Positions 745 through 51,546 of a stretch of 64,000 bases of DNA are shown piece by piece. Each line of letters starts with the position of its first letter. Positions within the stretch are counted from its first letter, which is position 1. Source of the stretch: Bacteroidales bacterium (lineage in GTDB: Bacteria; Bacteroidota; Bacteroidia; Bacteroidales; UBA12077); the NCBI GenBank assembly GCA_030637515.1, contig DAOWGM010000155.1:44633-108632 (forward strand), written 5' to 3'. A model generated the notes under the pieces. That model did no database searches and was not told the origin of the DNA. It worked only from the letters and a program-made list of their open reading frames with translations. A program made the translations under genes and the position numbers.

Positions 745-2082
745 ATGAAAATACTCCTGATAAATACTCCCCGCTCACCACATAACATGATTCTTAAATC
801 GGCTCCAGAAGAAGCTAAAAAATATATTCATAAAAGACTCATTGGACCTCCATTAGGATTATTAACTGTTGCAAAAGCTGTTGAAGATCATGATGTTGTT
901 GTATTTGACACAAAAGGAGAATATGATTTACATCCTGACACACCACCTCTCGACAAACTGGTATTAAAATTGTTAAAAGAACATAAACCTGATGTTGTTG
1001 GAACAACTATAATTGCATCAGAATTTGATTATGCTATTGAAATATTACAGACGGTAAAATCATATAATCCGGAGATTTTAACAGTGGCAGGAGGATTGCA
1101 TGCAACAATTTCACCACATGACTTTACTGATAATGCTGTTGATCTTATTTTACCGGGACAATCGGCACATATTTTCCGAAATGTAATTGAAGCAAAAGAA
1201 AAAGGGGTCGCCTTTGAAAAAGTAAATGGAATTATTATTAATAATGATGGTGTACTAAATAAAACATCTCCCGCAACTGAATATGATTCAGCAGCCGACA
1301 GCTTTCTAATGCCTGACAGAAAACATCTCGAGAGATGGATTGAAACCTACAAAGTTGGAGGAAATCCTTTTCCATCTACTTATTTATTTACATCCTTAGG
1401 CTGCCCTTACAAATGTACTTTTTGCTCAATATGGTGCCAGTTTAACGGACAATACCTTAAACGAAATATTGAAAGCATTATTGATGAATTAAAACAGGTA
1501 GATGAATATCCTGTTGTACGTTTTGCCGATGCAAATACTATTGTTGATATAAACATGATCGACAAACTCTTTGATAGAATTAATGAGGAAAAAATTAATA
1601 AAACCTATGTAATGGATATCAGAACCGATACTGCGGTTAAATATCCAAAGCTCATAGAAAAACTTGCAAAAGCAGGATTAAAAGTTGTAATCTGTGGTTT
1701 TGAATCGTTCCGCGAAGAAGAACTTAAAAGATACAATAAGAGTTCTGATGCAAAATTAATACATGAGGCTATAAATATCTTTCATCAAAACGGAATTATG
1801 CTCCGTGGTAATTATGTTATTCCAAACGATTATGATGAAGATGATTTTAAAGCACTTTCAGATTATACATCATCACACAAAGTTAGCTACGCCGGATATA
1901 CTATCCTCACTCCTATGCCCGGAACTCCTTTTTATAAAGAAGTTGAAGATCAGATTATCGATTTCGATCTTACAAAATATAACTTCTTTAACAGTGTCTT
2001 GAAAACAAAATTACCACTGGAAAAGTTCTATGAGAATGTGGGTAAATTATGGCTCATAAAAAAAGGAACTGACGTAATTTAG
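745..2082 (+). CDS. Cobalamin-binding radical SAM protein (BchE-like)
   Basis: The 445-residue protein has an N-terminal B12-binding Rossmann half (about residues 1-150, with DVVGTTI and VAGGLHATISP) followed by a radical SAM core. The [4Fe-4S] cysteines are in GCPYKCTFC (CxxxCxxC, about residue 220). The C-terminal GTPFYKEV-type motif fits the Elp3/MiaB-like barrel. Such enzymes methylate, cyclise or rearrange unactivated carbons; the substrate cannot be read from sequence. It stands alone, about 2 kb from the minus-strand arm of the pigment cluster, which holds a second enzyme of this class. A functional tie is possible but unproven. ATG chosen; no clear ribosome binding site. A hairpin terminator follows. 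Confidence 0.85.
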   Translation: MKILLINTPRSPHNMILKSAPEEAKKYIHKRLIGPPLGLLTVAKAVEDHDVVVFDTKGEYDLHPDTPPLDKLVLKLLKEHKPDVVGTTIIASEFDYAIEILQTVKSYNPEILTVAGGLHATISPHDFTDNAVDLILPGQSAHIFRNVIEAKEKGVAFEKVNGIIINNDGVLNKTSPATEYDSAADSFLMPDRKHLERWIETYKVGGNPFPSTYLFTSLGCPYKCTFCSIWCQFNGQYLKRNIESIIDELKQVDEYPVVRFADANTIVDINMIDKLFDRINEEKINKTYVMDIRTDTAVKYPKLIEKLAKAGLKVVICGFESFREEELKRYNKSSDAKLIHEAINIFHQNGIMLRGNYVIPNDYDEDDFKALSDYTSSHKVSYAGYTILTPMPGTPFYKEVEDQIIDFDLTKYNFFNSVLKTKLPLEKFYENVGKLWLIKKGTDVI

Positions 2083-4193: not shown

Positions 4194-5090
4194 TTATATT
4201 TTATGTACTAATTTCAGTTGATAATTACCGCAAATAAAACGAGATATTTTTTTCAAATCCTTTCCTGCCCCACATTCATAAAATTCAGTTACATTCTTTT
4301 CAATTATTATTTGCATCGTTCCAAACCAGTTAATTTTTCTTGTTAAGTTAAAAACCAACTCTTTTTTTAACTCAGCAGCTTCTGTAATTTCTCTTTGATC
4401 AAATGTTGAGATTATTGGACAACGTGGAGTTTTTATCTGTAAAGAATCTACAAATGAGGCAAATTCATCAGAATATTTCAACATATATTCAGAATGATAA
4501 GGTGTATTTACGGTTAATTCTGTCGTAGAAAGTGCTCCTTCATTCTTAGCTTCTCTTAGTATTTTTTTGATCTCCCTTTTTTTACCTGCAACAACTAAAG
4601 AATACTCATTATTGATATTAATTATTTCTGTTGTATGGTTCGTATTATTAATTAGAATATTAACATCATCTATTGATAATCCTATAATTGATCCCATTCC
4701 ATAATCTTCAGACACTCTTAATTCTTCGGTCAGATCAAATGCGGACTTAATAATTCTTATGCCATCAGAAAAAGAAATAGCTCCAGTAGAATATAAAGCA
4801 GCGTAAATACCCATGCTGTATCCAGCAACAAAATTTGGTTTTAGGTCCTTTAATAAAAGAATATCACTTATTGAACAACTAAAAATATAAGCAAGTAGCT
4901 GAGATAGAAATTCATTATTCTGGTATTCGTTGTTTTCGTAGGCAAATTCGGGTAAGTTATAGCCAATAAGCTCAGAAGCTTTATTAATATAGCTTGATAA
5001 ACTGAGATTATTTCTTTGTATAAAATCAAGCTCTTTACCGGTAAATTCAGTAATAAATGCAGGAAATACGAATGCTGTTTTATTACTCAT
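4194..5090 (-). CDS. Divergent FabD-like acyltransferase (discrete AT)
   Basis: This 298-residue protein has the FabD fold. The nucleophile elbow is AGYSMG (Ser about 92) and the catalytic His lies in NTPYHS (about 199), matching E. coli FabD Ser92 and His201. Two substrate residues differ. The N-terminal GQGSQ loop that supplies the oxyanion-hole Gln reads AFITE, and the malonate-binding Arg (FabD Arg117) aligns with Ala in KSAFDL. A non-malonyl substrate or acyl hydrolysis is therefore likely. ATG at 5090 is preferred to the GTG in the track. The gene overlaps the upstream phosphopantetheinyl transferase by 8 bases and follows an ACP, so the three form a translation-coupled set. Confidence 0.8.
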   Translation of the reverse strand: MSNKTAFVFPAFITEFTGKELDFIQRNNLSLSSYINKASELIGYNLPEFAYENNEYQNNEFLSQLLAYIFSCSISDILLLKDLKPNFVAGYSMGIYAALYSTGAISFSDGIRIIKSAFDLTEELRVSEDYGMGSIIGLSIDDVNILINNTNHTTEIININNEYSLVVAGKKREIKKILREAKNEGALSTTELTVNTPYHSEYMLKYSDEFASFVDSLQIKTPRCPIISTFDQREITEAAELKKELVFNLTRKINWFGTMQIIIEKNVTEFYECGAGKDLKKISRFICGNYQLKLVHKI

Positions 5091-5466
5091 CACCGTTCTT
5101 TTTTATTAACAAAACGCAGACAACTGCATATTTATCAGCTTGTTGAATATCAGCTTTAATATCTATTATTTTCAAATCATTAAATATGCCATCGATTTTT
5201 TTTGATGTATATATTTTAAAATCAGTTGGTCCTTCAAAAATGATTTCAACATCTTTAAAATCAAAATCGGAATTATTAAGTGCTTTATAAAAAGCTTCTT
5301 TAAAACAAAAGCCTTTTAAAAAGGCTTCTTTACCAAAAACTGAAAAATTTTCAATTTCTTTCGATGTAAAAAGATCATAAATAAGATCCGATAATATTCC
5401 GTTTTCGAAGTAATGCTTATCGAAACGATGAATTTCTTCAATATCGATTCCGCAACCGAATATCAT
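5083..5466 (-). CDS. AcpS-type 4'-phosphopantetheinyl transferase
   Basis: The enzyme transfers phosphopantetheine from CoA to the active Ser of ACPs. The 127-residue length fits AcpS. GCGIDIEEI carries the metal-binding Asp (residue 8), FTSKEI follows, and FKEAFYKAL carries the conserved Lys-Glu (56-57), so both metal ligands are present. It lies between an ACP gene upstream and the AT gene downstream, and probably primes the cluster's four ACPs. A second, degenerate homologue lies at 50050-50406. Confidence 0.88.
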   Translation of the reverse strand: MIFGCGIDIEEIHRFDKHYFENGILSDLIYDLFTSKEIENFSVFGKEAFLKGFCFKEAFYKALNNSDFDFKDVEIIFEGPTDFKIYTSKKIDGIFNDLKIIDIKADIQQADKYAVVCVLLIKKNGDE

Positions 5467-5477: not shown

Positions 5478-5780
5478 TTATAAGTCTAAAATACTATTCT
5501 CATGTTCAATTATAAGCAATTGCATTTTAATTAATTCACCAATAGTTTTTACCGGATTTTTAACTGCATATTTGCCTATTGTTTTTAGTTCAATATTGAG
5601 ACTGTATTTCTTTTTAAAAATTTCTATTAGTTCAAGAAACATTAATGAATCGCCATCTAAATCACCAATAATATTAGAATTCTCCGATATTTCATCAATC
5701 TCCATTTCACATTCTTCAGCAAAAAATTCAAGAATCACTTCTTTTACTTCTTCGCGCATTTTATCAGTAATCTGAGCCAT
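5478..5780 (-). CDS. Acyl carrier protein
   Basis: The 100-residue protein is slightly longer than a typical ACP. The phosphopantetheine site is GDLDGDSLMFLELIE, with the Ser in DSL, in a four-helix pattern. It has a C-terminal extension (IEHENSILDL). Twelve bases separate it from the AcpS gene downstream. Its neighbours suggest it is the carrier loaded by the discrete AT. Confidence 0.88.
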   Translation of the reverse strand: MAQITDKMREEVKEVILEFFAEECEMEIDEISENSNIIGDLDGDSLMFLELIEIFKKKYSLNIELKTIGKYAVKNPVKTIGELIKMQLLIIEHENSILDL

Positions 5781-5789: not shown

Positions 5790-6167
5790 TTATTCTGTTA
5801 TCAATTTATTAACTTCTTCTTTTGAAATTTCCTTCCATTTCGGATTTTCAAACTTATCATTGTCAATGTCAAACTCAACTATATAGAACGACTCTTGATT
5901 AAAGGATAGTTTCGTTTTCTTATTAGGTGTATGCTCAATATAAATTAAACGTTTATAGTCTATTTCATATTTATCACAAAGTTCTTTAGCAAGTTTTGTG
6001 TTCCATTCTGTAATTGATGTACCTGGATTTTCATCAAATAAATCAGTTGCAATTACAATGGTTTCATCTTGTTTCTTTACAATTTTCAAACCACAAATTG
6101 ATGGAACATCCCACAAACCATTGAAATTATATATCTGATCCTGATATTTACTAATTTTTGATTCCAT
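5790..6167 (-). CDS. Conserved-looking small protein of unknown function
   Basis: The 125-residue soluble protein has no signal peptide or membrane segment. Features include GLWDVPSICGLKI near residue 20, an EWNTKLAKELCDKYEI helix and a charged C-terminus. I do not recognise a family. It sits between the radical SAM gene (13 bases) and the ACP gene (9 bases), so it is almost certainly co-expressed with them and may be an accessory of the radical SAM enzyme or the ACP. Confidence 0.65.
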   Translation of the reverse strand: MESKISKYQDQIYNFNGLWDVPSICGLKIVKKQDETIVIATDLFDENPGTSITEWNTKLAKELCDKYEIDYKRLIYIEHTPNKKTKLSFNQESFYIVEFDIDNDKFENPKWKEISKEEVNKLITE

Positions 6168-6180: not shown

Positions 6181-7455
6181 TTAAGCAATTTTACTTTTTA
6201 CACTTTTACCAAAACTCATTTTTGATAAATCTTTTACTGGTTTTCTGAAAGTACCATCGTCAATCTCACGAGAAACTACTTTTTTCAAAAGCTTAAACAT
6301 TTTTTCTTCCTGTGTTTCATCTTTATAGAAAGTATCCCATGCATATTGATACATTTCTTGCAATCTTTCAGGGCTCATATGCTTTGGTTGATACACAACC
6401 TGACCGGCATTATAATCGTCCCAATTTTTATTAAAAATTCGGTCTTGTTTTATTAAATCATTATAAGCCTTAGTATGTGGGAATGGAGCCAATACTGTAA
6501 ACTCAGCTAAGTCAAGATCAATCTCTAATAAGAAATCTATTAATCTCTTAATATCATCTTCTGTCTGATTATCAAGACCTAACAAAATAGTTCCTTCAAC
6601 ACCAATACCATAATCATGATATCTTTTTACTCTTTCTCTTATATAATCAGAAGTATCGAATACTGCTTGATAAACATACCAAGCACCAGCCTGAGCAGCT
6701 AAATCCAGAACTTCCGGTTTATCTTCAATTGTATGACTACACCATTTCTTTTTTAACGGGATCATTGCCTTAAATAAATCTTTTTCCCATTGTGTATCTT
6801 GAGCTAAGGAGTTATCAACTATAAACAGTCTGTTATTATCGATGGTTTCTAGCTCTTCGATAGCCTTATCAATTGGTCTTGGACGAAAATTCCTACCTCC
6901 CAAATATGATACAGCACAAGGATAACAACTATATTTACAACCGCGCGAAGCATGAAATAAATCAACCATCTGCACTCCTTTATGATAGTATAGATCACGG
7001 TTGTAAATTTCTCTACGTGCCGGACCAACTATTTCAATCGGTGGTAAATCATTCATATGATTGTACACTTTTTTCAATTGACCATTTCTAAAATCTTGAA
7101 AAACCTGTTCTATATGCCCTTCAGCCTCACCAAGAAATACAGAATCAGCGTGAAGTATAGTTTCTTCGGCATGCAACATAGTAGAAATACCTCCAAAAAT
7201 TACTTTTTTACCTCTTTTTCTATACTCGTCTGCAATTGCCCAACCACTTTTAATCTGAGTAGTTAACAACATAGAGATACCTACAAAATCCACGTCATCA
7301 TCATAACGCATTTCTTCAAGATTCTGATCTATAAACTCTACCTCTACATCATCAGGAATAGTTGCTGCAAATACTGCTGCTCCGTGAGGTGGCAAATTAA
7401 AAGTTGTTTGCCCTTCCAGCTTTCTCCACTTTGGAAATATTAATTGAAATTTCAT
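6181..7455 (-). CDS. B12-binding radical SAM enzyme in the cluster's left arm
   Basis: The 424-residue protein begins with a B12-binding-like domain (LPPHGAAVFAATIP, VDFVGISMLL, VIFGGISTMLH). A radical SAM core follows, with cluster motif RGCKYSCYPC (CxxxCxxC, about residue 170). The later PFPHTKAY motif is typical of B12-dependent class B-like methylases and cyclases. It could methylate or ring-close the acyl chain; the exact reaction is unknown. It is within the minus-strand operon with ACPs, AT and sulfotransferase. A gap of about 50 bases separates it from the upstream sulfotransferase gene. Confidence 0.85.
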   Translation of the reverse strand: MKFQLIFPKWRKLEGQTTFNLPPHGAAVFAATIPDDVEVEFIDQNLEEMRYDDDVDFVGISMLLTTQIKSGWAIADEYRKRGKKVIFGGISTMLHAEETILHADSVFLGEAEGHIEQVFQDFRNGQLKKVYNHMNDLPPIEIVGPARREIYNRDLYYHKGVQMVDLFHASRGCKYSCYPCAVSYLGGRNFRPRPIDKAIEELETIDNNRLFIVDNSLAQDTQWEKDLFKAMIPLKKKWCSHTIEDKPEVLDLAAQAGAWYVYQAVFDTSDYIRERVKRYHDYGIGVEGTILLGLDNQTEDDIKRLIDFLLEIDLDLAEFTVLAPFPHTKAYNDLIKQDRIFNKNWDDYNAGQVVYQPKHMSPERLQEMYQYAWDTFYKDETQEEKMFKLLKKVVSREIDDGTFRKPVKDLSKMSFGKSVKSKIA

Positions 7456-7506: not shown

Positions 7507-8595
7507 CTAATGCAAACTATATTCCTTCTCTGTCATCCACGACTTTAGGATGTTATTGATTTCCAGCTTGTCGCTTTCTGGCATTGTATATTTATTTTTT
7601 TGGTATTCCTTTACCGAAATCAAAAAATCACTTATTTGTTTCTCAAATCCTTCCAAAAATTCAACATTCAACTGCTTGTATATTGATTTAATTTCTTTTG
7701 TAGGATTCTTTTCTAAATCCTCAAATTTTAATTCGTAGAATCTTTCCTTAGGAAGCTTCTTTACATCTTCATCAATTTTTTTAAGCATTTTAAATAACAA
7801 AGAACTAGTGTCCTGAATATTAGGTTTTACCCATTTTCCATTCATTGCATTTTGCTTACCAACAATATCCCACATTCTTATTGTTGAAGGAACAACCTTG
7901 TGTGGATGTCGCATAATATGAATATACCTCGCTTTTGGAAAGATTTCATTTAAAATATCAATACGAAAAGAATGAAACGGACTCTTTATCAGTATAGTAT
8001 TATTATTCTCGAGAGTCAATTTTTTGTAAAAATATTTTACAGCTTCTTTCCATTCTTCTAATTTCTTTCCTTCAGGTAAAAAATCAGGAAATTGATCTAA
8101 GAAATATTCTTTTGATTTTGGAAAAATTAAGCGCTCCAATGGTGAATAACTACACAATCTAAAAAGTGCGTATTCATCTTCCAAAGGCTCATCCATACTG
8201 AGTTTCACCTGATCCATTGGTCGAGTTCCCTTTAATGCTCGACCCATAATAGGTTCATATGACTTTCGGGAAGTTAGAAAACTATCGGGTATTGATCCTT
8301 GAAATACATTAGTAGTTACCAAATTAGCGTCAAGAGCCAACAGTTGATGTAAAAATGTACTTCCTGTTCTCCAGTGTCCAATAATTATTATTGGATCTTC
8401 AGGTAATTTATGAGTTTTAATTTTATTGGCATAAACCGACTTTTCTTTTCTGTAAAATATAGAAGCCCACACTCCATTTTGAAAAAGAAATAAGAACCTT
8501 ACCAGATATTTTGGATACAACGACATTCCATTTTTCATAATAAGTTTTATGAACCTGGATAGTCTCATCCCTGCTATCAGGTAAGCACTCTTCAT
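7507..8595 (-). CDS. Sulfotransferase family protein
   Basis: The 362-residue protein carries both PAPS-binding signatures. The 5'-phosphosulfate loop is GHWRTGSTFLHQLL (about residue 73), and the 3'-phosphate motif is RHPHKVVPSTIRMW (about residue 230). This places it in the Sulfotransfer_3 type, which moves sulfate from PAPS to hydroxyl groups of small molecules or lipids. It starts with an amphipathic, hydrophobic N-terminus (FIKLIMKNG, FLFLFQNG) that may contact membrane. Its position beside ACP and BtrH genes points to sulfation of the cluster product or an ACP-bound intermediate. PAPS synthesis genes are not in the window. Confidence 0.88.
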   Translation of the reverse strand: MKSAYLIAGMRLSRFIKLIMKNGMSLYPKYLVRFLFLFQNGVWASIFYRKEKSVYANKIKTHKLPEDPIIIIGHWRTGSTFLHQLLALDANLVTTNVFQGSIPDSFLTSRKSYEPIMGRALKGTRPMDQVKLSMDEPLEDEYALFRLCSYSPLERLIFPKSKEYFLDQFPDFLPEGKKLEEWKEAVKYFYKKLTLENNNTILIKSPFHSFRIDILNEIFPKARYIHIMRHPHKVVPSTIRMWDIVGKQNAMNGKWVKPNIQDTSSLLFKMLKKIDEDVKKLPKERFYELKFEDLEKNPTKEIKSIYKQLNVEFLEGFEKQISDFLISVKEYQKNKYTMPESDKLEINNILKSWMTEKEYSLH

Positions 8596-8632: not shown

Positions 8633-8908
8633 TTATTCCGATTTGCTTTTAATAAAATCAGCAATCGAATTTACATCTTTTAGTACCTCACGAGCCAAAT
8701 TTTGATCATCAATGCGTACTTTAAAATCTCTCTGAATTGCCATAACAAGTTCTATTGCATCGATTGAATCTAATCCTAAAGTATTGTCTCCTCCGAAAAG
8801 TGGTAGGTCATCTTCAATATCCTGCGGAGTTATATCCTGTATATTTAATGTATCAATAATCATTTTTTTAATATCCGCCTTCAAATCTGTTCCAATATTT
8901 TCTCCCAT
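8633..8908 (-). CDS. Acyl carrier protein
   Basis: The 91-residue ACP has the attachment site GLDSIDAIEL preceded by PLFGGDNTL. It resembles the ACP at 23281-23535 (PLFGDGLGLDSIDALEL), suggesting two related carriers for one pathway. It lies 13 bases downstream of the BtrH-like gene, as expected if the BtrH protein takes its acyl group from this carrier. Confidence 0.9.
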   Translation of the reverse strand: MGENIGTDLKADIKKMIIDTLNIQDITPQDIEDDLPLFGGDNTLGLDSIDAIELVMAIQRDFKVRIDDQNLAREVLKDVNSIADFIKSKSE

Positions 8909-8921: not shown

Positions 8922-9935
8922 TTAAATATTACTAACTACTGTTTTTAATTCATTATAAAAAGCTTCCTCAGAATCAGCTCTTTCATTAATCATTTGACCT
9001 AGTTCCTGAAGTTTTTCAGGTCCAAGATCTCTGTTTTTTCCAATTTTGGCTGCAAAGTAAGAAATATTTCTCCAACCATCTCCTATTTCCATCATCTTTT
9101 TTGACATATCTTCTAATTCTTTATTCTGTAGAATTTCAGATGCTTGACGAAGAAATGTGGCATATAAAAAACGGAATCCACCCCCACCTGTTCCTTGATC
9201 TTCAAGAAAAACATTTATTTTCATCACCTCATGCGATAAATGATCAATATCTCTTGTTAATTTTGGCCATCCTTGTAGTTTCTTAGCAAAAGTTCGAATA
9301 CCTCGCACACCAATAAACGGAGGTTGAACACCCACCATATTATTAACAGTATTTTTTATTGCAACAGGAATTAGCTTCTTATAATCAACTGTTTCAGGCA
9401 CAGATTCTATATAATATCTAAATCCTTTTGGAGCTAAATATCCACCAGCAAAACGAGCCTTTCTTAAATTATCTTTATGAATTCGAGCAAATTTGGGGTA
9501 ATAGCTATCACTAACAATATATTCATCACCTTCTTTTCCAACTATAGTAATAAAGTGAATATTAGCATGAACTCTTTCCCATTGAGGAATATAATCCATA
9601 TAATAAAAGTCTACTTGACAAGCAACAGGTATGTTATTCTCTAAAAGACTGTCAAGTTCTTGCTCAGCTTCATCTTGATTTTTAAATCGTTGAGTATTAA
9701 ATTTAATATCAGTTCTCTTTGCAATTTTCTTTCTTAATTTCCCTGGTTTTGTTCTTAAAATAAACATAGGAAAATTAAGATTTGGTGTTCGGCTTAAATA
9801 GCCAAAATATAAACCACTACCCAAACCAAAAATCATTGGTTCAGTAATTTCCAGACCCTGATGTTTTAGTAATGCTGTTAATGAGCCAGACTCACAATGA
9901 GCTGCCATATTGTGTTTAAAAGATTCTATTATCAT
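8922..9935 (-). CDS. BtrH N-terminal domain / DUF4872 acyltransferase-like protein
   Basis: This 337-residue protein is the BtrH_N plus DUF4872 type. The N-terminal HCESGSL motif supplies the papain-like nucleophilic Cys (about residue 14). A downstream His near HANIHFITI and Asp in VSDSYYP can complete the triad. BtrH itself moves an acyl group from an ACP to an amine in butirosin synthesis. The C-terminal half has the GTGGGGFRFLYA motif shared with the second copy at 17835-18839. It starts in an ATGA overlap with its HTH-like partner, so translation is coupled. It probably offloads an ACP-bound acyl chain or ring. Confidence 0.82.
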   Translation of the reverse strand: MIIESFKHNMAAHCESGSLTALLKHQGLEITEPMIFGLGSGLYFGYLSRTPNLNFPMFILRTKPGKLRKKIAKRTDIKFNTQRFKNQDEAEQELDSLLENNIPVACQVDFYYMDYIPQWERVHANIHFITIVGKEGDEYIVSDSYYPKFARIHKDNLRKARFAGGYLAPKGFRYYIESVPETVDYKKLIPVAIKNTVNNMVGVQPPFIGVRGIRTFAKKLQGWPKLTRDIDHLSHEVMKINVFLEDQGTGGGGFRFLYATFLRQASEILQNKELEDMSKKMMEIGDGWRNISYFAAKIGKNRDLGPEKLQELGQMINERADSEEAFYNELKTVVSNI

Positions 9936-10432
9936 TTTTTGTTTAATTCTATTTTTGTGATAACTACGAAAGGATTTTCTGTTCTTGTTTGTTTAACCAG
10001 TATTGGTTGCTTCTGTTTATCTGACTCCGCTTTGGTCTCATTATCTTCAACTACAATAGCTTGAAATAAATTAGAAACCGGTATGTCAAAAGCATATGCA
10101 TATTTATATAAGTCTGCCAATTTTGCTTTTCTGAATGATTTTACTTTTTGATGTTGTTTCACCTTAAATACAGGAATCCCGGTTCTTCGAGATAATTCAA
10201 CATCATTAAAATCATGAATTAGCTTATAAAAATAAACTGGGGTAATTTCATTTTTTTTGAGTTTCTCTAGTAATGAATTTCTTAATTTCATCATTTTCTC
10301 CCAGAAATCGTCAAGATAATTTTTGGTTATATACGAGCCTGTCTGAATCGGACCAAATGTTCCATCTTCCTTTTCAACATACATTATAAGTTGTTGAGGT
10401 TCGTAATCAATATAAGCATCTTTTTCTTTCAT
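9932..10432 (-). CDS. Small HTH-like partner of BtrH protein
   Basis: The 166-residue protein contains a Cro/CI-like helix-turn-helix pattern at about residues 75-125 (VELSRRTGIPVFKVKQH and LADLYKYAYAFDIPVSNLF). The corresponding part of the 134-residue protein at 17428-17832 (YIELPKWKVKRHLKP, IEKYAKIFEINVDELV) is clearly related. Each copy sits directly upstream of a BtrH-like gene. It is the first gene of the minus-strand operon, facing the lyase gene across the divergent promoter region. It could be a local regulator or a BtrH-dedicated adaptor. Confidence 0.6.
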   Translation of the reverse strand: MKEKDAYIDYEPQQLIMYVEKEDGTFGPIQTGSYITKNYLDDFWEKMMKLRNSLLEKLKKNEITPVYFYKLIHDFNDVELSRRTGIPVFKVKQHQKVKSFRKAKLADLYKYAYAFDIPVSNLFQAIVVEDNETKAESDKQKQPILVKQTRTENPFVVITKIELNKK

Positions 10433-10816: not shown

Positions 10817-12358
10817 ATGATAATTATAGGGGGTGAGAATCTTAATCTTAATGATTTTTACAAAATTCTTTTTGAAAGTGAAAAGATTGATTTAGATAAA
10901 AACGCACTAAAAAAAGTACAAGAAAGTTACAATTTTTTAGATGATTTTTCGAAGAACAAAGTAATATATGGCATAAATACGTGCTTTGGTCCAATGGCAC
11001 AATATAAGATTAGCGACGACGACCAAAAAACACTTCAATACAACCTCATTCGCAGTCACGCTGCTGGTTCAGGAAATACCTTACCAAACATTTATGTGAA
11101 AGCATTAATGATTGGTCGTTTAAATACTTTCATGAAAGGGTTTTCAGGAGTACATGAAGAAGCTATTTTTCTATTAAAAGAATTTATTAATAAAGATATT
11201 TATCCTAAAATATTTGAACACGGTGGTGTTGGAGCAAGTGGAGATTTAGTTCAATTAGCACATTTAGCTCTTAATCTTATTGGTGAAGGAGAAATATGCT
11301 TCGATGGTGAATTTAGACCTGCACAAGAAGTTTTTAAAGCAAATAACTTAGAACCTTTAAAAGTTCATTTAAGAGAAGGCTTAGCTTTAATAAACGGAAC
11401 TTCATGCATGACAGGTATAAGCATTATCAATCTAATTCATGCAAAGAATCTATTAAACTGGTCTTTAATTTCTTCCAGTTTAATTAACGAAGTTGTTGAA
11501 TCTGCCGACGATCATTTTTCAGAAGAACTAAATCAGGTTAAACTGCACGAAGGACAAAACCTTATTGCTGAAGAAATACGAAAAATAGTTGACTCAAGTA
11601 AGCTCATTAAGAAAAGATCGGACTTATTTTATAACAACCATCACGATGTTGGAGTAATCAAAGTTAAAGTTCAGGAATATTATTCGCTTCGTTGTGTACC
11701 TCAAGTATTAGGTCCTATATACGAAACTATAGCAAATGCTGAAAAGGTTATTATAAATGAAGTAAATTCTGTTAATGATAATCCTATAATTGATAAAGAG
11801 AATGGTGATGTGCTTCATGGTGGTAATTTCCATGGAGATTATATTTCTCTTGAAATGGACAAACTAAAAATTGTAACAACGAAGTTGTCTATGTTGGTTG
11901 AACGCCAAATTAACTATTTGTTCAATGAAAAGATAAACGAGAAATTCCCTCCATTTGCAAACCTTGGAACAATTGGTTTAGATTTAGGATTACAAGCAGC
12001 ACAGTTTACAGCAACATCAACAACTGCAGAAAATCAGACCTTATCTAATCCAATGTATGTTCATAGCATTCCTAACAATGGCGATAATCAAGACATTGTG
12101 AGTATGGGTACTAATTCTGCATTAATCACAAAGAAAGTAATTGAAAACTCGTTTGAAATATTATCAATCAAATACATGAGTTTACTTCAGGTAATCGATT
12201 ATATGGAATTCCAAGAAAGATTATCGGATATAGGAAAGAAACTTTATAAGGAAATGAGAGCAATTGTTCCTAAAATTGTAAAAGACGTTCCATTGTATCC
12301 ACATATTGAAAACATCAAACAATATTTAATAAAAACCAGACCAAATCTAATAAACTAA
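10817..12358 (+). CDS. Tyrosine ammonia-lyase (aromatic amino acid lyase, MIO enzyme)
   Basis: This enzyme removes ammonia from L-tyrosine to give p-coumarate, the usual aryl starter of flexirubin-type polyenes. The 513-residue protein has the Ala-Ser-Gly triad that forms the MIO electrophile (VGASGDL, residues 140-142). The catalytic-loop motif is YGINTCFGP. The substrate-selecting segment NLIRSHAAG is like that of the Flavobacterium flexirubin-cluster tyrosine lyase as I remember it, rather than a PAL-type FL pair. YVHSIPNNGDNQD and GGNFHGDYIS are also conserved in that enzyme. Histidine cannot be excluded as substrate from sequence, but the context strongly favours tyrosine. It is the first gene of the plus-strand operon, six bases from the reductase. 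Confidence 0.9.
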   Translation: MIIIGGENLNLNDFYKILFESEKIDLDKNALKKVQESYNFLDDFSKNKVIYGINTCFGPMAQYKISDDDQKTLQYNLIRSHAAGSGNTLPNIYVKALMIGRLNTFMKGFSGVHEEAIFLLKEFINKDIYPKIFEHGGVGASGDLVQLAHLALNLIGEGEICFDGEFRPAQEVFKANNLEPLKVHLREGLALINGTSCMTGISIINLIHAKNLLNWSLISSSLINEVVESADDHFSEELNQVKLHEGQNLIAEEIRKIVDSSKLIKKRSDLFYNNHHDVGVIKVKVQEYYSLRCVPQVLGPIYETIANAEKVIINEVNSVNDNPIIDKENGDVLHGGNFHGDYISLEMDKLKIVTTKLSMLVERQINYLFNEKINEKFPPFANLGTIGLDLGLQAAQFTATSTTAENQTLSNPMYVHSIPNNGDNQDIVSMGTNSALITKKVIENSFEILSIKYMSLLQVIDYMEFQERLSDIGKKLYKEMRAIVPKIVKDVPLYPHIENIKQYLIKTRPNLIN

Positions 12359-12363
12359 TTAAA

Positions 12364-13092
12364 ATGAAATTTGCTTTAGTAACAGGAGGTTCAAGAGGAA
12401 TTGGAAAAGCAATATGTTTAAAAATTGCTGAATTAGGATATCATATTTTAGTTAATTACAGAAGTAATAATCAAGAAGCAGAAGATACACTAAATCAGAT
12501 TAAAACATTAGGAGGTTCAGGTGAACTGATGAAATTTGATGTTTCTAATTCTGATGAAATTAGAGCTTCATTAGACAAATGGAAAGAGAACAATCCTGAA
12601 TCAGTTATTGAAGTGTTAATTAATAACGCTGGCATAAGAAAAGATGCCTTAATTGTGTGGATGAAAGACGAAGATTGGAAGGATGTTTTAAACACAAATC
12701 TGGATAGTTTTTATTATATTACAAAACATTTAGTACAAGATATGATTGTTAACAGATATGGGAGAATTGTTAACGTTGTTTCATTATCTGGTATTAAAGG
12801 TTTGCCCGGACAAACAAATTATTCGGCAGCTAAAGGTGGCGTAATTGCTGCAAGCAAAGCTTTAGCTCAAGAAATTGCAAAAAAGAACGTAACTGTAAAT
12901 TGTGTTGCTCCTGGTTTTATTAAAACAGATATGACACAAGAATTGGAAGAGAAAGATTTAAAACGTCTTATTCCAATGAGTCGATTTGGTAATGCTGAAG
13001 AAGTTGCTGATGTTGTTGCTTTTCTTGCTTCACCGAAAGCATCTTATGTAACAGGAGAAGTAGTTTCTATAAACGGAGGACTTTATACATAA
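12364..13092 (+). CDS. 3-oxoacyl-ACP reductase (FabG-like SDR)
   Basis: The 242-residue short-chain dehydrogenase has nucleotide-binding TGGSRGIGK at the N-terminus, NNAG at about residue 83, catalytic Ser in VSLSGIKG and YSAAK (Tyr-x-x-x-Lys). The C-terminus TGEVVSINGGLYT is FabG-like. It would reduce each beta-keto intermediate before dehydration. It lies between the lyase and a ketosynthase, so it is very probably dedicated to the polyene chain rather than to primary fatty acid synthesis. Confidence 0.9.
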   Translation: MKFALVTGGSRGIGKAICLKIAELGYHILVNYRSNNQEAEDTLNQIKTLGGSGELMKFDVSNSDEIRASLDKWKENNPESVIEVLINNAGIRKDALIVWMKDEDWKDVLNTNLDSFYYITKHLVQDMIVNRYGRIVNVVSLSGIKGLPGQTNYSAAKGGVIAASKALAQEIAKKNVTVNCVAPGFIKTDMTQELEEKDLKRLIPMSRFGNAEEVADVVAFLASPKASYVTGEVVSINGGLYT

Positions 13093-39775: not shown

Positions 39776-41080
39776 ATGAATATATTCCCCGAAGATATCG
39801 ATCACAAATCAACCGATGAAATTAGAACATATCAGGAAGAGCAATTAAAAGTTCTACTTCAATATGTAAATAAAAATTCAAAGTTTTATTCTGATCTTTT
39901 TAAAGAGAACAATGTTGATATTAAAGATATAAAGACACTTGAAGATCTTCAAAAAATACCTTTTACAACCAAAGATGATCTTTACGAACAAAACGATGAT
40001 TTTATTTGCGTTGATAGTCGTAAGATAGTTGATTATATAACTACTTCGGGAACTTTAGGTGATCCTGTAACTTTTGCAATGACCGATGCTGATCTGGAAC
40101 GATTAGCTTACAATGAATATATTTCGTTTTTGTGTTCTGATGGAAGTCCTGATGATATTTACCAATTAATGGTAACCTTAGACCGCCGATTTATGGCCGG
40201 ATTAGCTTATTTCTTAGGAATTAAGAAAATGGGTGCTGGAATGGTTCGTGTTGGTAATGGTATGATTGAATTACAATGGGATACCATTCAAAGAATAAAA
40301 CCCAATGCTCTGATTGCTGTTCCTTCATTCATTCTAAAACTAATTGAATATGCAGAAGCAAACGGTATTGATTATAAAAACTCAAGCATAAAAAAAGCAA
40401 TTTGTATTGGTGAATCATTACGAAATTCTGATTTTACTTTAAATACATTGGGTCAACGAATAAAAGACAAGTGGGATATTAAATTATATTCTACTTATGC
40501 TTCAACAGAAATGGGTGCTGCATTTGCTGAGTGTGGACAAAGTATTGGAGGACATCATCGTCCAGAATTGCTAATTGTTGAATTTGTTGATGAATATAAC
40601 AATCCTGTTTCTGAAGACGAAGCTGGTGAGCTTGTTATCACTACTCTTGGTGTTGAAGGAATGCCTTTAATCCGTTTCAAAACCGGCGATGTAGTACAAC
40701 ACTTTACTGAAGCTTGTGCCTGTGGACGAAGTTCAATGCGTTTAGGTCCTGTAATTGGTCGTAAAAACGAAATGATAAAGTATAAAGGAACAACACTTTA
40801 TCCTCCTGCATTGTACGATATTCTAAATGATATGGAATATGTAGAGAATTATATTATTGAAGTTTCTACAAACCAAATTGGAACCGACGATATTTTAATT
40901 CGTATTGCTACCAACGGAAACAAACCCGAAAACTTCGAGAAGTTTATTAAAGACCATTTTAGAGCAAAACTACGAGTTGCTCCTACCATTCAGTTCGAAT
41001 CCAAAGAAGAAATTAACAAAGTTAAATTCCCGGAATTAAAGCGTAAACCAGTTGTGTTTATTGATAAAAGAAGGAAGTAG
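39776..41080 (+). CDS. Phenylacetate-CoA ligase-like adenylate-forming enzyme
   Basis: The 434-residue AMP-binding protein is of the PaaK type: TTSGTLGDPVTFA (phosphate-binding loop), YASTEMG (adenine site), IRFKTGDVV with TGD, and a C-terminal domain with KFPELKRKP carrying a Lys. A CACG segment is in the usual PaaK zinc-like position. It would activate an aromatic acid; in this context p-coumarate from the lyase is the best candidate. It is transcribed from its own promoter downstream of the main operon. Confidence 0.85.
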   Translation: MNIFPEDIDHKSTDEIRTYQEEQLKVLLQYVNKNSKFYSDLFKENNVDIKDIKTLEDLQKIPFTTKDDLYEQNDDFICVDSRKIVDYITTSGTLGDPVTFAMTDADLERLAYNEYISFLCSDGSPDDIYQLMVTLDRRFMAGLAYFLGIKKMGAGMVRVGNGMIELQWDTIQRIKPNALIAVPSFILKLIEYAEANGIDYKNSSIKKAICIGESLRNSDFTLNTLGQRIKDKWDIKLYSTYASTEMGAAFAECGQSIGGHHRPELLIVEFVDEYNNPVSEDEAGELVITTLGVEGMPLIRFKTGDVVQHFTEACACGRSSMRLGPVIGRKNEMIKYKGTTLYPPALYDILNDMEYVENYIIEVSTNQIGTDDILIRIATNGNKPENFEKFIKDHFRAKLRVAPTIQFESKEEINKVKFPELKRKPVVFIDKRRK

Positions 41081-43906: not shown

Positions 43907-45127
43907 CTATCCGTTGTGCTTTTTGAAGACTAATGTAGCATTATGGCCTCCAAAAGCAAATGAGTTGCTTAAAACTACATTTAAATCTTGTTTTCGGGCT
44001 TTGTTTGGTACATAATCTAAATCCAATTCAGGATCTGGCTCGTCGTAGTTCATAGTTGGTGGAACAATTCCATCTTTAATTGCCAAAACACTAATCACAC
44101 CTTCAATTGCTCCAGCTGCACCTATGGTATGTCCGGTCATAGATTTTGTAGATGAAACCGGAATTTTGTATGCTTTATCGCCAAAAACTTTTTTAATTGC
44201 CTGCGTTTCGTATATATCATTTAACATGGTTGAAGTTCCATGCGCATTAATATAAGAAACTTCATTTTTTGAGATACCAGCATTTGTAAGTGCTAATTCC
44301 ATCGTATCTGCCATTCCTTCACCATCTGGTTTGGGAGCCATAATATTATACGATTCGTTGGTAAAAGCATAATCAACTAATTCAGCATAAATCTTTGCTC
44401 CACGTACTTTTGCCGATTCTTCCGATTCTAAAATCATGATTCCTGCTCCTTCTCCTATTACAAAACCATCACGGTTTTTTGAAAACGGACAACTTGCTTT
44501 TTCTGGATTTTCATTTTTAACTGCAAGGGCATAAATCCCATTAAACCCTTCGATTTCTTCTTTATTTATAATGGAATCGGCACCACCCACAATCATCATA
44601 TCGGCACGACCTGCTTTAATAGTATCGTAACCCAAAGCAATAGCAAAAGCCGAAGATGAACATGCTGATGAAGTTGTAAAGTTTGGACCTTCAATATTGT
44701 AACGCATTCCAATCCAAGCAGACATGGCATTATTCATTCGCTTTAAAATCAAGTTTTTAGAACTAGTTCCTTGTTCCGTACTTGAATCACCGGTATTAAC
44801 AACTCCAAGAATAACACCAACGCGTTTTTTGTTTAACTGATCAAAATTGATGTTGTGTTTTTCAACCGCCTCAATAGCACAAACGTATGACATTTGCGTA
44901 ACACGAGTCATTTGTTTTGAAAGTCGCTTTTTAATTAAAGAAGCCGATTTTTCTGCGAATTCAGCATGAAGTTCTGCTGCAATCTGAGTTTGATTTTCTG
45001 AAGCATCAAATAATGATATTTTCTTAATACCACTTTTTCCTGCCTGTATATTTTTCCAGGTTTCTTCCCAATCAAGACCCAATGCTGTAAGCATATTAAA
45101 CCCGGTTACAACTACCTTCTTATTCAT
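43907..45127 (-). CDS. Beta-ketoacyl-ACP synthase (FabF-like), remote from the core
   Basis: The 406-residue ketosynthase is complete: Cys in TSSACSSSAFA, His in NAHGTSTMLND, Lys/His in SSTKSMTGHTIGAAG. It starts with the standard VVVTGFNMLTALG. It is the window's fourth complete ketosynthase and sits alone on the minus strand behind repeats. It could add a condensation for the right-arm genes or be a spare fatty-acid enzyme; the cluster context favours the first. Confidence 0.88.
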   Translation of the reverse strand: MNKKVVVTGFNMLTALGLDWEETWKNIQAGKSGIKKISLFDASENQTQIAAELHAEFAEKSASLIKKRLSKQMTRVTQMSYVCAIEAVEKHNINFDQLNKKRVGVILGVVNTGDSSTEQGTSSKNLILKRMNNAMSAWIGMRYNIEGPNFTTSSACSSSAFAIALGYDTIKAGRADMMIVGGADSIINKEEIEGFNGIYALAVKNENPEKASCPFSKNRDGFVIGEGAGIMILESEESAKVRGAKIYAELVDYAFTNESYNIMAPKPDGEGMADTMELALTNAGISKNEVSYINAHGTSTMLNDIYETQAIKKVFGDKAYKIPVSSTKSMTGHTIGAAGAIEGVISVLAIKDGIVPPTMNYDEPDPELDLDYVPNKARKQDLNVVLSNSFAFGGHNATLVFKKHNG

Positions 45128-45655: not shown

Positions 45656-46657
45656 TTACAACATAATTCCACAAAATTCTACCAGAGCTTTCTTAAGGCT
45701 AAATAAGTTAATCTGATAATTTTCTGAATACTCTTTAATATATTTATTGGCCATAAATCTTAGTGTTTCCTGAATGTAGTTTTCCATTTCACCGGATACT
45801 TCGAACATCTCAGTTTCGGAATCATAGAACTTGTATGTTGATTTTTTTTCTGATAAGGTTCGGTGTTGAAGTTCTTTAAGCAAAGGCTCATACTTTCTCT
45901 TATCTGGATCTTTTCTTGAGTAATTCATTATTGCGTTGTGCATGGTATTGTGTCCAACCTGATCCATCATTTCAAACAAACCAAATTCAGTTACAGTCTT
46001 TTTAGCAATAGTATCAAGTTGACTATATTTTAAGCCAATTTCTTTGATAAAACCAAACGCTACTAACTGAAGTTGCAATAATATTCTATTTAAAATAAAT
46101 GCACTTTGCTCCTTTTGTTCAATATAAAATCTTTTAATATCATCTAAAAACAACTTGGCTTTTTCAAGTGAAATTTCGTCGGTATATTCCGATGATATTA
46201 TTTCCACAACATTCTTAAAAGCTAACGGATAAAAGAAATGCAGTCCAAGAATTCTGTTTTTTCTTTGAACGTTTTCGCATAATTCAGAAGGCAAAATAGA
46301 AGATGAATTAGAAGCAAGAACACATGAAGGCTTTATAATTTTATCAAGCTCATGAAATAATTCTGATTTTACATCCAACTCTTCAATAACTGATTCGAGA
46401 ATTAAATCACAATCTGAAAGTTCAATCAGATCATTTGTAATTCTATATTTATTCCTAAAATCGAATATTTCCTGATTAATTATACCATGTTTAAGTTGTC
46501 TCTTTATCTTTTTCTGATATGTATTGCGAAGAACCACTTTATGATCTGGGTTTCGTGTAAACCAGATAAGATTAAAACTAAAATCAGACAAATAATTAAA
46601 AATATCCGATCCCATTTTACCACTACCTATAATACCTATGTTTTTAATTTCATTCAT
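45656..46657 (-). CDS. 3-hydroxyacyl-CoA dehydrogenase
   Basis: The 333-residue enzyme has the NAD-binding motif IGIIGSGKMGSDIF at the N-terminus. SNSSSILPSEL and GLHFFYPLAFKNVVEII follow, the latter with the catalytic-type His. A helical C-terminal dimerisation domain completes it. It would interconvert 3-hydroxyacyl- and 3-ketoacyl-thioesters. A terminator upstream separates it from the barrel genes. With the crotonases and thioesterase nearby it suggests CoA-linked handling of a short or branched acyl unit. Confidence 0.85.
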   Translation of the reverse strand: MNEIKNIGIIGSGKMGSDIFNYLSDFSFNLIWFTRNPDHKVVLRNTYQKKIKRQLKHGIINQEIFDFRNKYRITNDLIELSDCDLILESVIEELDVKSELFHELDKIIKPSCVLASNSSSILPSELCENVQRKNRILGLHFFYPLAFKNVVEIISSEYTDEISLEKAKLFLDDIKRFYIEQKEQSAFILNRILLQLQLVAFGFIKEIGLKYSQLDTIAKKTVTEFGLFEMMDQVGHNTMHNAIMNYSRKDPDKRKYEPLLKELQHRTLSEKKSTYKFYDSETEMFEVSGEMENYIQETLRFMANKYIKEYSENYQINLFSLKKALVEFCGIML

Positions 46658-48267: not shown

Positions 48268-49395
48268 CTAATAATATCTTAAAATATATCCTGCCTGCAT
48301 AAATTTACTAACTTCTGTAACAAAACTCAAAATTATATCACCTGCATATAATTTTTCTTCTTTACGTATCTTATCAATAGAAATAAGAGCCATTGGTGGT
48401 CCTGCATAACCCATTGTAGACATTTTGGTATATAAAGTATTTCTGTTAATTCCAAGTTCATCGCATTCATCCATTATTAATTCTGAAATATGCTTTGAAG
48501 GAAAGTTTACCTGAAAATATTTTAATTCATTTAAATTAATTGGATATTTATTCAACATTCTTTTTAATCCTTTCAAAAACACACTTCCGTCCTCATCATG
48601 AAAATGGGTTCTTAGTTGATCGTTAAACATTTGAGCCAAATGATGATAGCCAAGTTCAAACTCTTCTTTAGGATTCATCCAATATGCAGGTCGTTTATTC
48701 ATCATTGCCGAAGGTTTTTTACCTCCAATTGATTCCATATATGTTTCTTCGACAAATAAGCCGTTTTCTTTTTTATCTGTAGCTTGTAAAACCAAAGCTC
48801 CTGCTCCATCGCTTAAAAAATAACGCAAAAACAATTCTTCCTTTTTTACAATTGCTTGATTATAATATTCGGCTCTTAACTCAGATGATGACATTCCCGA
48901 GGAAATTACTAATGCATTTTTATATCTTCCTAATTTTAAGAAATCACTTGCTACCAACAATGCTTTGTAGGCAGATGTACAATTTGCATGAATAGATATC
49001 TCACCACATTGTTCAATTCCTAATGCTTCCTGTATACGAACAGAAGCTGTTGGCATCTGATCCTGATGTGCACTTCCGTATACTATCAAGTCAATATCTG
49101 TAGCTTTCAATCCTGCCTCTTCTAAAGCACTATTGGCGGCTTTCACAGACATTGTGATATTATCTTCAGTAAATTCTCTGGTTTCCGGATCAATAGCAAA
49201 ATGATAATACTCTACCTCAAGCATCTCGTTCATAAGGCTTTTCATTCTATGAAGCCATTTCTGGATTTTTTTTGGTGCTTCGGTTAATTCTCCCAGATAA
49301 TTATCAACTTCATGTATAGTTATAGGTTTTCCGGGTAAGAATGAGCCCGTTCCTATCAATTTTATATATTTTTCAACTAATTTATTCTGATTCAT
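48268..49395 (-). CDS. KASIII-like protein (DarB-like outline) with altered active site
   Basis: The 375-residue thiolase-fold protein keeps the nucleophile Cys (HANCTSAY, residue 139) and SDGAGALVL. The catalytic His motif of KASIII is replaced: YFQVNFPSKH puts Asn (297) at the His place. The GNTSAAS motif reads GYAGPP, putting Tyr (330) at the Asn place. The overall layout (FLP start, STMGYAG near the end) resembles DarB-type synthases. Without the decarboxylation pair it more likely transfers an acyl group than condenses. It is nine bases from the crotonase gene upstream, in one operon with two crotonases and a PPTase. Confidence 0.75.
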   Translation of the reverse strand: MNQNKLVEKYIKLIGTGSFLPGKPITIHEVDNYLGELTEAPKKIQKWLHRMKSLMNEMLEVEYYHFAIDPETREFTEDNITMSVKAANSALEEAGLKATDIDLIVYGSAHQDQMPTASVRIQEALGIEQCGEISIHANCTSAYKALLVASDFLKLGRYKNALVISSGMSSSELRAEYYNQAIVKKEELFLRYFLSDGAGALVLQATDKKENGLFVEETYMESIGGKKPSAMMNKRPAYWMNPKEEFELGYHHLAQMFNDQLRTHFHDEDGSVFLKGLKRMLNKYPINLNELKYFQVNFPSKHISELIMDECDELGINRNTLYTKMSTMGYAGPPMALISIDKIRKEEKLYAGDIILSFVTEVSKFMQAGYILRYY

Positions 49396-49403: not shown

Positions 49404-50057
49404 TTATCTTAATTTCTTGAATTCAGGATCAAAATTTTCACTTACTTTCTTTGCAATATCTGTTGCCAAATTTAAAACTTCTTTTGATGGTGCAATTTTA
49501 TGTATTAAATCCCACTTTAATGCTTCCTGAGGATTAAATGTTTCTCCACTCAGAATCAATTCAATTGCAAGAGATTTTTTTATGAGATTTGGCAATATAT
49601 ATGTTCCTGTACAGCCAGGGATGAGTCCGAAAGTTGTTTCGGGTAATCCCAAAACTGCCTTTTCACCGCATACAATATAATCTGTACACAAAGCCAGTTC
49701 AAAAGCAGAGCCAAAGCAAACTCCTCTGACAGCAGCAATTACCGGTATTTTCAATTCTTTAAGCGAAAAAAATATCCTGCTATTTTTATTTAAAAATTTA
49801 CTAATCTTTTCAGTATGTCCGTCTTCGACATGACTTCTCTCAATTATTCCAAGCAAATCATTTAAAACTGCTCCAGAAGAAAAGTGACGACCCTTTCCGT
49901 GAATAATAATTGCCTTTATTTCTGCTCTCTCAACGATTTCTTTTCTCCACCAATAAAACTCTTCAAAAAAAGTAGAATCCATAGGATTAGAAGGCGGATT
50001 ATTTATCTCTAAATATCCGATTTCATCTTTTATATGCCAGTTTAGTACTTTAAACAT
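49404..50057 (-). CDS. Crotonase-family protein (enoyl-CoA hydratase/isomerase-like), 1
   Basis: The 217-residue protein has RHFSSGAVLNDLL for the oxyanion region, FGSAFELALCTDY and LPETTFGLIPGCTG. Both Glu positions of classical hydratases (FE and PE) are kept. It is shorter than usual (about 260) at the C-terminus. ATG at 50057 is preferred to the TTG in the track. It overlaps the PPTase stop by eight bases. It may hydrate, isomerise or decarboxylate an acyl-thioester. Confidence 0.82.
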   Translation of the reverse strand: MFKVLNWHIKDEIGYLEINNPPSNPMDSTFFEEFYWWRKEIVERAEIKAIIIHGKGRHFSSGAVLNDLLGIIERSHVEDGHTEKISKFLNKNSRIFFSLKELKIPVIAAVRGVCFGSAFELALCTDYIVCGEKAVLGLPETTFGLIPGCTGTYILPNLIKKSLAIELILSGETFNPQEALKWDLIHKIAPSKEVLNLATDIAKKVSENFDPEFKKLR

Positions 50058-50406
50058 TTTCTTCAATCACTACTAATGTCGATATATAATTTTCTGAATG
50101 AGAAATTGAAATATTTATGTCAGTAATATTCATTTCTACTGCTTTCTTCAAAACTTCTCCTGTATAAGTTAAAACAGGTTTCCCATCTTCCTCATTTTTA
50201 ATTTCGATGTCGTGATATTTATTATCTAATTTTAAATAATTCAAAATTGATCTTTTTATCAGATATCTTGCACCAAGACTTTTAATCTTATTTTTATCTT
50301 CAACGGATTTTAATTCTCTATCACTAAAATAATTATCATCTAAATTTTTTGATAAAATTGCTTTGATTTCTTCAAAAGACTCTACTTGTACAATTTCTTT
50401 ATACAT
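50050..50406 (-). CDS. AcpS-like phosphopantetheinyl transferase, degenerate
   Basis: The 118-residue protein (ATG 50406, AGGA five bases upstream) has the AcpS outline: FSDRELKSV, GARYLIKRSIL and ISHSENYISTLVV. The metal ligands are not preserved: the N-terminal GIDIVEI segment reads IVQVESFEE, and the KEA motif reads KRS (Arg 52 for Glu). It may be inactive, metal-independent, or specialised for one carrier. A complete AcpS-type enzyme exists at 5083-5466. It lies between, and overlaps or abuts, the two crotonase genes. Confidence 0.68.
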   Translation of the reverse strand: MYKEIVQVESFEEIKAILSKNLDDNYFSDRELKSVEDKNKIKSLGARYLIKRSILNYLKLDNKYHDIEIKNEEDGKPVLTYTGEVLKKAVEMNITDINISISHSENYISTLVVIEENV

Positions 50407-50413
50407 AATAATC

Positions 50414-51148
50414 CTACTGATCTTTTTTAACATTCACTGCCAACTTGCAAAACAATTCTGTTTCGATTTTTAATGCCTCATCTTTTTCAAGTAATGTGGC
50501 ATTATGAATGGCTTGCATTGCGGAATGAATTAGCTCTATTGTACGATCTGCGGTCAAGCTTTTTAACTTATTTAAGGCAAATTCAAAAGAATCCTTTTGT
50601 TCTGAAATATGATCAACTATTCCTATTTCATAAGCTTTTTCTGCGTTAATCATATCTCCGTTTAATAGAATTTCTTTAGCTTTATTTCCAAGTAATTGTA
50701 TTATTCTATAACTTCCACCCAAACCAGGAATAAAGCCATGATTTGTTTCAGGGAATGCAAATAAAGCGGTTTTCGAAGCAATACGAATATGACATGCCAA
50801 AGCAATCTCTAAACCCCCACCAAAACACACTCCATTTATTGCAGCAATTACAGGAATATTCAAATCTTCAATAAAATCAAGGATATTTTTTCCTTCATTC
50901 ATTTTATCTTGTAAAAGAACCGGATCTTTAGCTAATTCAACAAGTTTTTCGATATCGGCTCCAGCAGAAAAATTACGTCCAACTCCTCTAATTATTATTC
51001 CTTTCAATCCCTTTTCTGATGTCCATTTCTTTAATTTATCAAGACTCACAAAATCAGGATTATTCAAATAATTCTCTCGACCGTTGGAAATAGATAAAAT
51101 CCCCAGTTCTCCTTGCCTTTCCCAAATAGTGATATTCGATTGTTCCAT
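50414..51148 (-). CDS. Crotonase-family protein (enoyl-CoA hydratase/isomerase-like), 2
   Basis: The 244-residue protein has GRNFSAGADIEKL, FGGGLEIALACH and FPETNHGFIPGLGGSYRI. Both hydratase Glu residues are present. It is closer to typical enoyl-CoA hydratases than its neighbour. It ends eight bases before the PPTase ATG and starts 11 bases after the thioesterase stop, as part of a tight five-gene operon. Confidence 0.87.
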   Translation of the reverse strand: MEQSNITIWERQGELGILSISNGRENYLNNPDFVSLDKLKKWTSEKGLKGIIIRGVGRNFSAGADIEKLVELAKDPVLLQDKMNEGKNILDFIEDLNIPVIAAINGVCFGGGLEIALACHIRIASKTALFAFPETNHGFIPGLGGSYRIIQLLGNKAKEILLNGDMINAEKAYEIGIVDHISEQKDSFEFALNKLKSLTADRTIELIHSAMQAIHNATLLEKDEALKIETELFCKLAVNVKKDQ

Positions 51149-51159
51149 TTAATATTTCT

Positions 51160-51546
51160 CTATTTTACTATTGATTTCAATTCTTCCGGAATATCCTGAG
51201 GAATGCGGTCTTTATCAATCAGTATTGTTTTAACTTCAGCTTTTGCAGCTTTAGTTTTTTCAGTCAAATTCAATATATCATGATAAAAAACCAGATACGG
51301 AGCCTCAATCTTAATTGTTGTTGAAATCTCTATTTCATCAAACAGCTTTAATTCACGCATATATCTAATATTGGTTTCTGTTACTACCAATAATAAATTC
51401 TTATCAAGGAATGAATTTAAAAGTCCAGCATTACGTAGAATCTCCCATCTGGCTTGCTCCGTATAATTTAAATAAACAGCATTATTTACGTGTCCGTATG
51501 AATCGAGTTCGTATCCTCGTACTTCTGTTTTATAACTGTATTTCAT
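51160..51546 (-). CDS. Acyl-CoA thioesterase (4HBT hotdog)
   Basis: The 128-residue protein has VRGYELDSYGHVNNAVYLNYTEQAR, the FatA/YbgC-like signature with catalytic Asp and HVNN. It is the first gene of the right-arm minus operon and faces the O-methyltransferase across 126 bases. It could release the product formed by the crotonase/dehydrogenase enzymes. Confidence 0.87.
   Translation of the reverse strand: MKYSYKTEVRGYELDSYGHVNNAVYLNYTEQARWEILRNAGLLNSFLDKNLLLVVTETNIRYMRELKLFDEIEISTTIKIEAPYLVFYHDILNLTEKTKAAKAEVKTILIDKDRIPQDIPEELKSIVK

Follow-up and report, generated by a model that had tools for sequence, protein, structure and literature searches.

A clade of discrete Bacteroidales acyltransferases that lacks the malonate-binding arginine and belongs to a flexirubin-type accessory module

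The window, by which we mean the whole 64,000-nucleotide stretch of Bacteroidales DNA that was analysed, encodes a discrete acyltransferase (AT) of 298 amino acids at 4194..5090 on the minus strand (ATG at 5090 and stop at 4194; the strand was absent from the earlier note on this gene). The AT closes an operon on that strand, and its first 8 bp are also the last 8 bp of the AcpS gene. The operon begins with a DarG-like protein (9932..10432; NF053536, under the cut-off) and continues with DarH, a BtrH-related acyltransferase (8922..9935; NF053550, 326 bits, above the cut-off), ACP1 (8633..8908; PF00550), a sulfotransferase-family protein (7507..8595; PF13469), a B12-binding radical SAM protein (6181..7455; 88-93% identical within the genus), a 125-aa protein that has no family match and adjoins the radical SAM gene (5790..6167), the dedicated carrier protein ACP2 (5478..5780; PF00550, above the cut-off), and an AcpS-type phosphopantetheinyl transferase (5083..5466; PF01648, 40.9 bits, above the cut-off). 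This order is retained in the same-genus genomes where the contig is long enough. Across families, the 125-aa protein remains beside the B12-radical SAM gene. Two further AcpS-type genes of this genome lie outside the window.

The AT operon is divergent from a flexirubin-type operon that starts with the tyrosine ammonia-lyase FlxA and the reductase FlxB (10817..13092, plus strand; NF053541, 820 bits, and NF053542, 408 bits, both above the cut-off). The acyl-CoA ligase FlxY is also encoded on the plus strand (39776..41080; NF053551, 711 bits, above the cut-off). Thus, FlxA, FlxB, FlxY, and DarH all pass their curated cut-offs for flexirubin-type families, and the window has these families in common with the flx/dar clusters of Chitinophaga pinensis and Flavobacterium johnsoniae. 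A StlD/DarB-family ketosynthase III (KSIII) is encoded elsewhere in the genome (G000:C5:53539-54666; NF005293, 597 bits, cut-off 450), just after a flavodoxin-type gene that is DarA-like as judged by eye only, so the usual flexirubin parts exist besides the AT module, and it is this module of AT, ACP2, another KSIII, and radical SAM protein that distinguishes the window from the flx/dar clusters. (This one cluster has two DarG-DarH pairs, one per operon, at 9932-10432 with 8922-9935 and at 17428-17832 with 17835-18839. Also, an MMPL/RND exporter, a lysophospholipid acyltransferase domain, and a UbiG-like methyltransferase seem to be fused in a single open reading frame at 29686-33549.)

The AT matches Pfam Acyl_transf_1 and scores 156.1 bits against the FabD equivalog model (NCBIfam TIGR00128), which is under the cut-off of 260.9. 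The structure prediction that the earlier note had called for gave a FabD fold: the solved structures closest to the AlphaFold model (pLDDT 93.9, pTM 0.91) are FabD enzymes (6u0j, 1mla; TM 0.90, rmsd 2.5), and the model and the alignments together indicate the alpha/beta-hydrolase and ferredoxin-like AT fold with its Ser/His dyad. Like FabD, the AT has a stand-alone format and retains Ser92 (codon 4817-4815), His199 (4496-4494), Gln64, Met132, and the Asn pair. However, it is only 22-25% identical to FabD and differs at Arg117 (Ala), Gly118 (aromatic), GQGSQ (AFITE), GHSLGE (GYSMGI), and Gln250 (Asn). Arg117, GQGSQ, and GHSLGE, any of which would speak for membership in FabD, are all absent.

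The reading of Ala at the malonate-binding position does not depend on the choice of alignment. Counting without gaps from the catalytic Ser, Arg117 of FabD (Ser+25) corresponds to Ala117 (gca, 4742-4740). HMMER alignments to five FabD/PksC structures and a MAFFT alignment concur with this pairing. The MAFFT alignment took in the genome's own FabD and an E. coli FabD sequence that we presume to be right, as it was checked only by the numbering of Ser92, Arg117, and His201. A BLASTP alignment of the AT to the genome's own FabD introduces a one-residue gap, and Ser116 then faces the Arg, so there is no Arg at the substrate site either way. In the AT model, helix 107-120 is continuous. The five structure alignments, the MAFFT alignment, and the unbroken helix rule out misalignment as the cause of the Arg loss, and with the gapped BLASTP likewise placing no Arg there, the earlier note was right on this point. 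We also considered whether a Lys or Arg two residues upstream might replace the missing Arg, but Lys115 is variable among relatives (K, Y, F, H, V, and others), which rules this out.

The motif GQGSQ does read A11-F-I-T-E15 (PAFITE is residues 10-15), as the earlier note had claimed, but its description of this change as the loss of the oxyanion motif stands only in part. The Gln side chain is gone. In the AT fold, however, the oxyanion hole consists of backbone NH groups (those of Gln12 and Leu100 in PksD; PMC11775670), so the loss of the side chain does not alone remove the hole. For the same reason, the change alters the pocket wall but need not abolish catalysis.

To see how general these changes are, we aligned 28 AT family members from 11 genera of Bacteroidales, in which the relatives are 30-63% identical to the AT of the window. 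Position 117 is Ala in 26 sequences and Val in 2, and position 118 is aromatic (Tyr, Phe, or Trp) in all 28. Position 12 is always Phe, and position 15 is Glu or Asp in 26/28. The site of FabD His91, just before the catalytic Ser, is Tyr in 26 sequences, Leu in 1, and Met in 1; position 95 is Ile or Leu (28/28), position 198 is Tyr (27/28), and position 248 is Asn (28/28). Ser92, Met93, Gly94, Gln64, and His199 are invariant, and Met132, Asn158, and Asn160 of FabD are retained as well. No conserved basic substitute for the Arg was found across the 28 sequences, as the only strongly conserved basic residues are His199, K281, and R284. (The last two lie near the C-terminus and could form a contact with the ACP.) The clade can be recognized by the signature FPAF, GYSMG[IL]Y, A-[FYW] at 117-118, and PYH. 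Judging from the alignments and the model, the pocket positions have been remodelled and are more hydrophobic.

When 393 genomes of the order were searched with a profile, the AT turned up in 19, spread over 11 genera. It was present in 18 of 20 genomes of the same genus, where the other copies are 50-79% identical to that of the window, but was not found in the other genus of the same family. A tree separated the 28 ATs from nine FabD-like rows by a branch with 100/100 support, which rules out a recent duplicate of FabD as the origin of the AT. Comparison with the closest relative (79% identical) gave dN of 0.12 and dS of 0.60 (dN/dS of about 0.2), which indicates purifying selection. Given the family-wide conservation, the well-supported branch, and the low dN/dS, the signature is old and has been maintained, and the residue changes are neither chance nor the peculiarity of a single aberrant gene. 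As they hold for the whole clade, the observation is stronger than was first stated.

Beyond the order, 95 genomes of the phylum (excluding the window's own) matched the AT profile at E<=1e-40, but the best 11 of the 95, which we inspected, were FabD, all with GQGSQ and the Arg. The best score outside the order (166 bits) was below that of the weakest member within it (210 bits). An ordinary FabD with GQGAQ and the Arg is encoded at a separate locus of the genome, so the AT cannot be the sole source of malonyl groups. One same-genus genome (G016) encodes two additional ATs, both with the Arg, and genome G020 has, besides its full AT, a C-terminal AT fragment on the same strand (L032:5808-6089) that is 61% identical over 94 residues.

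The earlier note had linked the AT to an ACP and an AcpS as a dedicated unit. The link to the ACP is borne out: ACP2 adjoins the AT in nearly all loci and was present in all 15 AT-positive genomes tested, even where it does not adjoin the AT (61-73% identity in the 14 of them outside the genus), and it was not found in five AT-negative relatives. The link to AcpS holds within the genus, where its position is conserved, but it is not general, as several other families showed no AcpS match next to the AT. For example, in two families (f100 and f28), the AT comes after ACP2 and no AcpS match separates them. Other families likewise have the AT after ACP2, often accompanied by a FabF-type ketosynthase (KS) and a dehydrogenase, and by a block of KSIII, two enoyl-CoA hydratase (ECH)-family proteins, and a thioesterase. 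In one genus, the AT instead lies directly after a PF02621 (MqnA/MqnD-like) gene, apart from ACP2 and the flexirubin genes (L067:9799-11478, L073:1037-2719, and L074:9004-10854).

Counterparts of these partners lie in the window, at some distance from the AT: a FabF-type KS (43907..45127, minus strand), which is beside ACP2 and the AT in other genera and whose Cys-His-His triad reads as intact; a 3-hydroxyacyl-CoA dehydrogenase-like protein (45656..46657, minus strand), which adjoins KS, ACP2, and AT in other genera; a StlD/DarB-type KSIII (48268..49395, minus strand); and an ECH-family protein, a second AcpS-like protein, a second ECH-family protein, and a thioesterase (49404..51546, minus strand), which travel with the KSIII. 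Another B12-binding radical SAM protein is encoded at 745..2082 on the plus strand. This last gene has the same distribution as the AT (19/19 genomes, among the 393 of the order), and the KSIII is in 18 of the 19 and none elsewhere among the 393. Fisher tests across genomes gave P of about 1e-32 for the radical SAM protein and 1e-30 for the KSIII, but the genus-level figures (about 1e-18 and 1e-16) are fairer because genomes are not independent. The co-inheritance of these two genes with the AT is an addition to what had been noticed before.

The KSIII of the module is closest in fold to StlD/DarB (5gk0), although its model is weaker (pLDDT 81) and it scores under the family cut-off. It shares the catalytic Cys (Cys139), but Asn297 occupies the site of StlD His302, and Tyr330 occupies the Asn site. 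All 16 aligned sequences keep the Cys, and none of them has the His or the Asn of StlD and FabH. In KSIII enzymes such as FabH, this His/Asn pair supports the decarboxylation of malonyl-ACP. Thus, the AT and the KSIII of one module each lack a set of malonate-handling residues. The module is not wholly malonate-free, because the Cys and both His of the FabF-type KS are retained. We also considered an HMG-type beta-branching cassette, given the combination of KSIII, two ECH, ACP, KS, and AT. As the Cys of the KS is intact and the KSIII resembles StlD, we did not class the module there; an analogy is possible.

The family-wide loss of the Arg, the lack of a conserved basic substitute, and the normal FabD elsewhere in the genome favor a neutral acyl group or hydrolysis over malonyl transfer, as had been suggested for the single gene. 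From the sequences and the model, we propose that the AT carries a neutral acyl group on Ser92 and transfers it to ACP2 or away from it, and we give this a probability of roughly 0.55. The direction of transfer, the donor, and the identity of the acyl group are what we infer within this proposal. A FabD-derived Ser/His acyltransferase would have given up malonate recognition; Ser92 would take a neutral (non-carboxylated) acyl group from CoA or another ACP; and the group would be handed to the phosphopantetheine of ACP2, or removed from it. The charged ACP2 would feed the KSIII, the FabF-type KS, the B12-radical SAM protein, and the ECH and dehydrogenase proteins, and the accessory module would add or modify part of a flexirubin-type aryl polyene pigment, while the housekeeping FabD would supply malonyl groups for elongation. 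The presence of two ACP genes in the operon (5478-5780 and 8633-8908) makes ACP-to-ACP transfer a possibility.

There are precedents for parts of this proposal. One is VinK, which transfers a neutral dipeptidyl group from one ACP to another (PMC6164871, PMC11284099). Like VinK (5czc/5czd), the AT would be a stand-alone AT that, paired with a stand-alone ACP, handles a neutral acyl group (predicted here), and the folds are related (TM 0.80). However, VinK loads the vicenistatin modular PKS, and at 24.8 bits and 15-16% identity, the likeness is at the level of the fold only. Also, a mutant of the malonyl-AT PedD in which the Arg is replaced by Gln was acylated by ACP-borne acetyl groups and did not hydrolyze them (PMC11775670). 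Some observations fit less well. The R606A mutant of the MAT of murine FAS is far poorer than the wild type at octanoyl transfer (PMC6954729), so losing the Arg does not alone make a good neutral-acyl transferase. The FabF-type KS probably needs malonyl-ACP, which may mean that ACP2 has to bear a malonyl group at some point. The genus in which the AT lies away from ACP2, beside an MqnA/MqnD-like gene, also counts against the proposal.

An alternative that we consider possible, if rather improbable, is that the AT is an editing enzyme like PksD or PedC, which would hydrolyze short acyl groups misloaded on ACP2, such as acetyl-phosphopantetheine placed there by AcpS. The fold is related to that of these acyl hydrolases of trans-AT PKSs (8avz), the loss of the malonate Arg is described as diagnostic for them, and misloading by phosphopantetheinyl transferases is the type of error that they clear (PMC11775670). 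Furthermore, the genes for AcpS, ACP2, and AT are coupled in the window and in the genus. However, acyl hydrolases usually have Gln or His at the Arg site, keep the oxyanion Gln12 as Gln or His, and have Ala, Ser, or Val before the Ser (PMC11775670), whereas the AT family has Ala or Val, Phe (28/28), and Tyr, Leu, or Met (26, 1, and 1 of 28). As the motifs of acyl hydrolases are not matched, hydrolysis is less likely than transfer, and the editing role put forward in the earlier note is weakened, although the Arg loss it rested on is indeed shared. Also, the AT profile scores PksD at 61 bits as compared to up to 147 bits for FabD, several families keep ACP2 and AT without an adjoining AcpS, and this is a type II setting with no trans-AT megasynthase or modular PKS in the window.

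A second alternative, which we think is quite unlikely, is that the AT is the malonyltransferase of ACP2 after all, with malonate held by another residue or by backbone contacts. The AT is clearly related to FabD, it retains Gln64, Met132, Asn158, and Asn160, and the FabF-type KS that is its neighbor in other genera would need malonyl-ACP. However, the strongly conserved Arg, Lys, and His residues are limited to the catalytic His and two C-terminal positions, so malonyl transfer would need an unconserved or unusual contact. The genome's own FabD is available, and the AT falls far short of the equivalog cut-off. Finally, it is very unlikely that the AT is catalytically dead and merely binds ACP2 or scaffolds the KSIII: it is among the fastest-evolving genes of the operon (50-63% identity in the genus, against 60-93% for most neighbors) and has lost His91 and Glu95 of the GHSxGE motif, but Ser92, His199, and Gln64 are invariant in 28/28 sequences and the coding sequence is under purifying selection.

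Returning to transfer of a neutral acyl group, a bolder version, which we offer as doubtful speculation, is that the AT, ACP2, and the KSIII without His and Asn form a malonate-free acyl core. The AT would load a finished neutral chain, and the Cys of the KSIII would pass it on or join it, without decarboxylation, to a second chain, which would give an extra, undescribed building block of the pigment.

Of the 393 genomes of the order, 86 have FlxA, and 15 of the 19 with the AT are among these. (Among the other four, one has FlxA-like pieces on two contigs and three have no FlxA above the cut-off.) As the AT module is absent from 71 of those 86 genomes, it is an addition that a minority of flexirubin-type pathways have. 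In the literature that we searched, no earlier description of this AT without the malonate Arg was found; the enzyme varies a type that is already known and sits inside a flexirubin-type accessory module for which we likewise found no description. Annotation routinely calls discrete ATs malonyl transferases, from which this clade can be separated by its signature. The clade comes with an ACP of its own and is co-inherited with two enzymes, of which one lacks the matching malonate-decarboxylating residues, and it offers a natural test of how ATs shift from malonyl to neutral acyl groups. Among flexirubin-type pathways, the module picks out a subgroup that has an accessory step. If the malonate-free core is real, it would give an extra building block to the flexirubin-type pigments of about one-sixth of the FlxA-bearing Bacteroidales.
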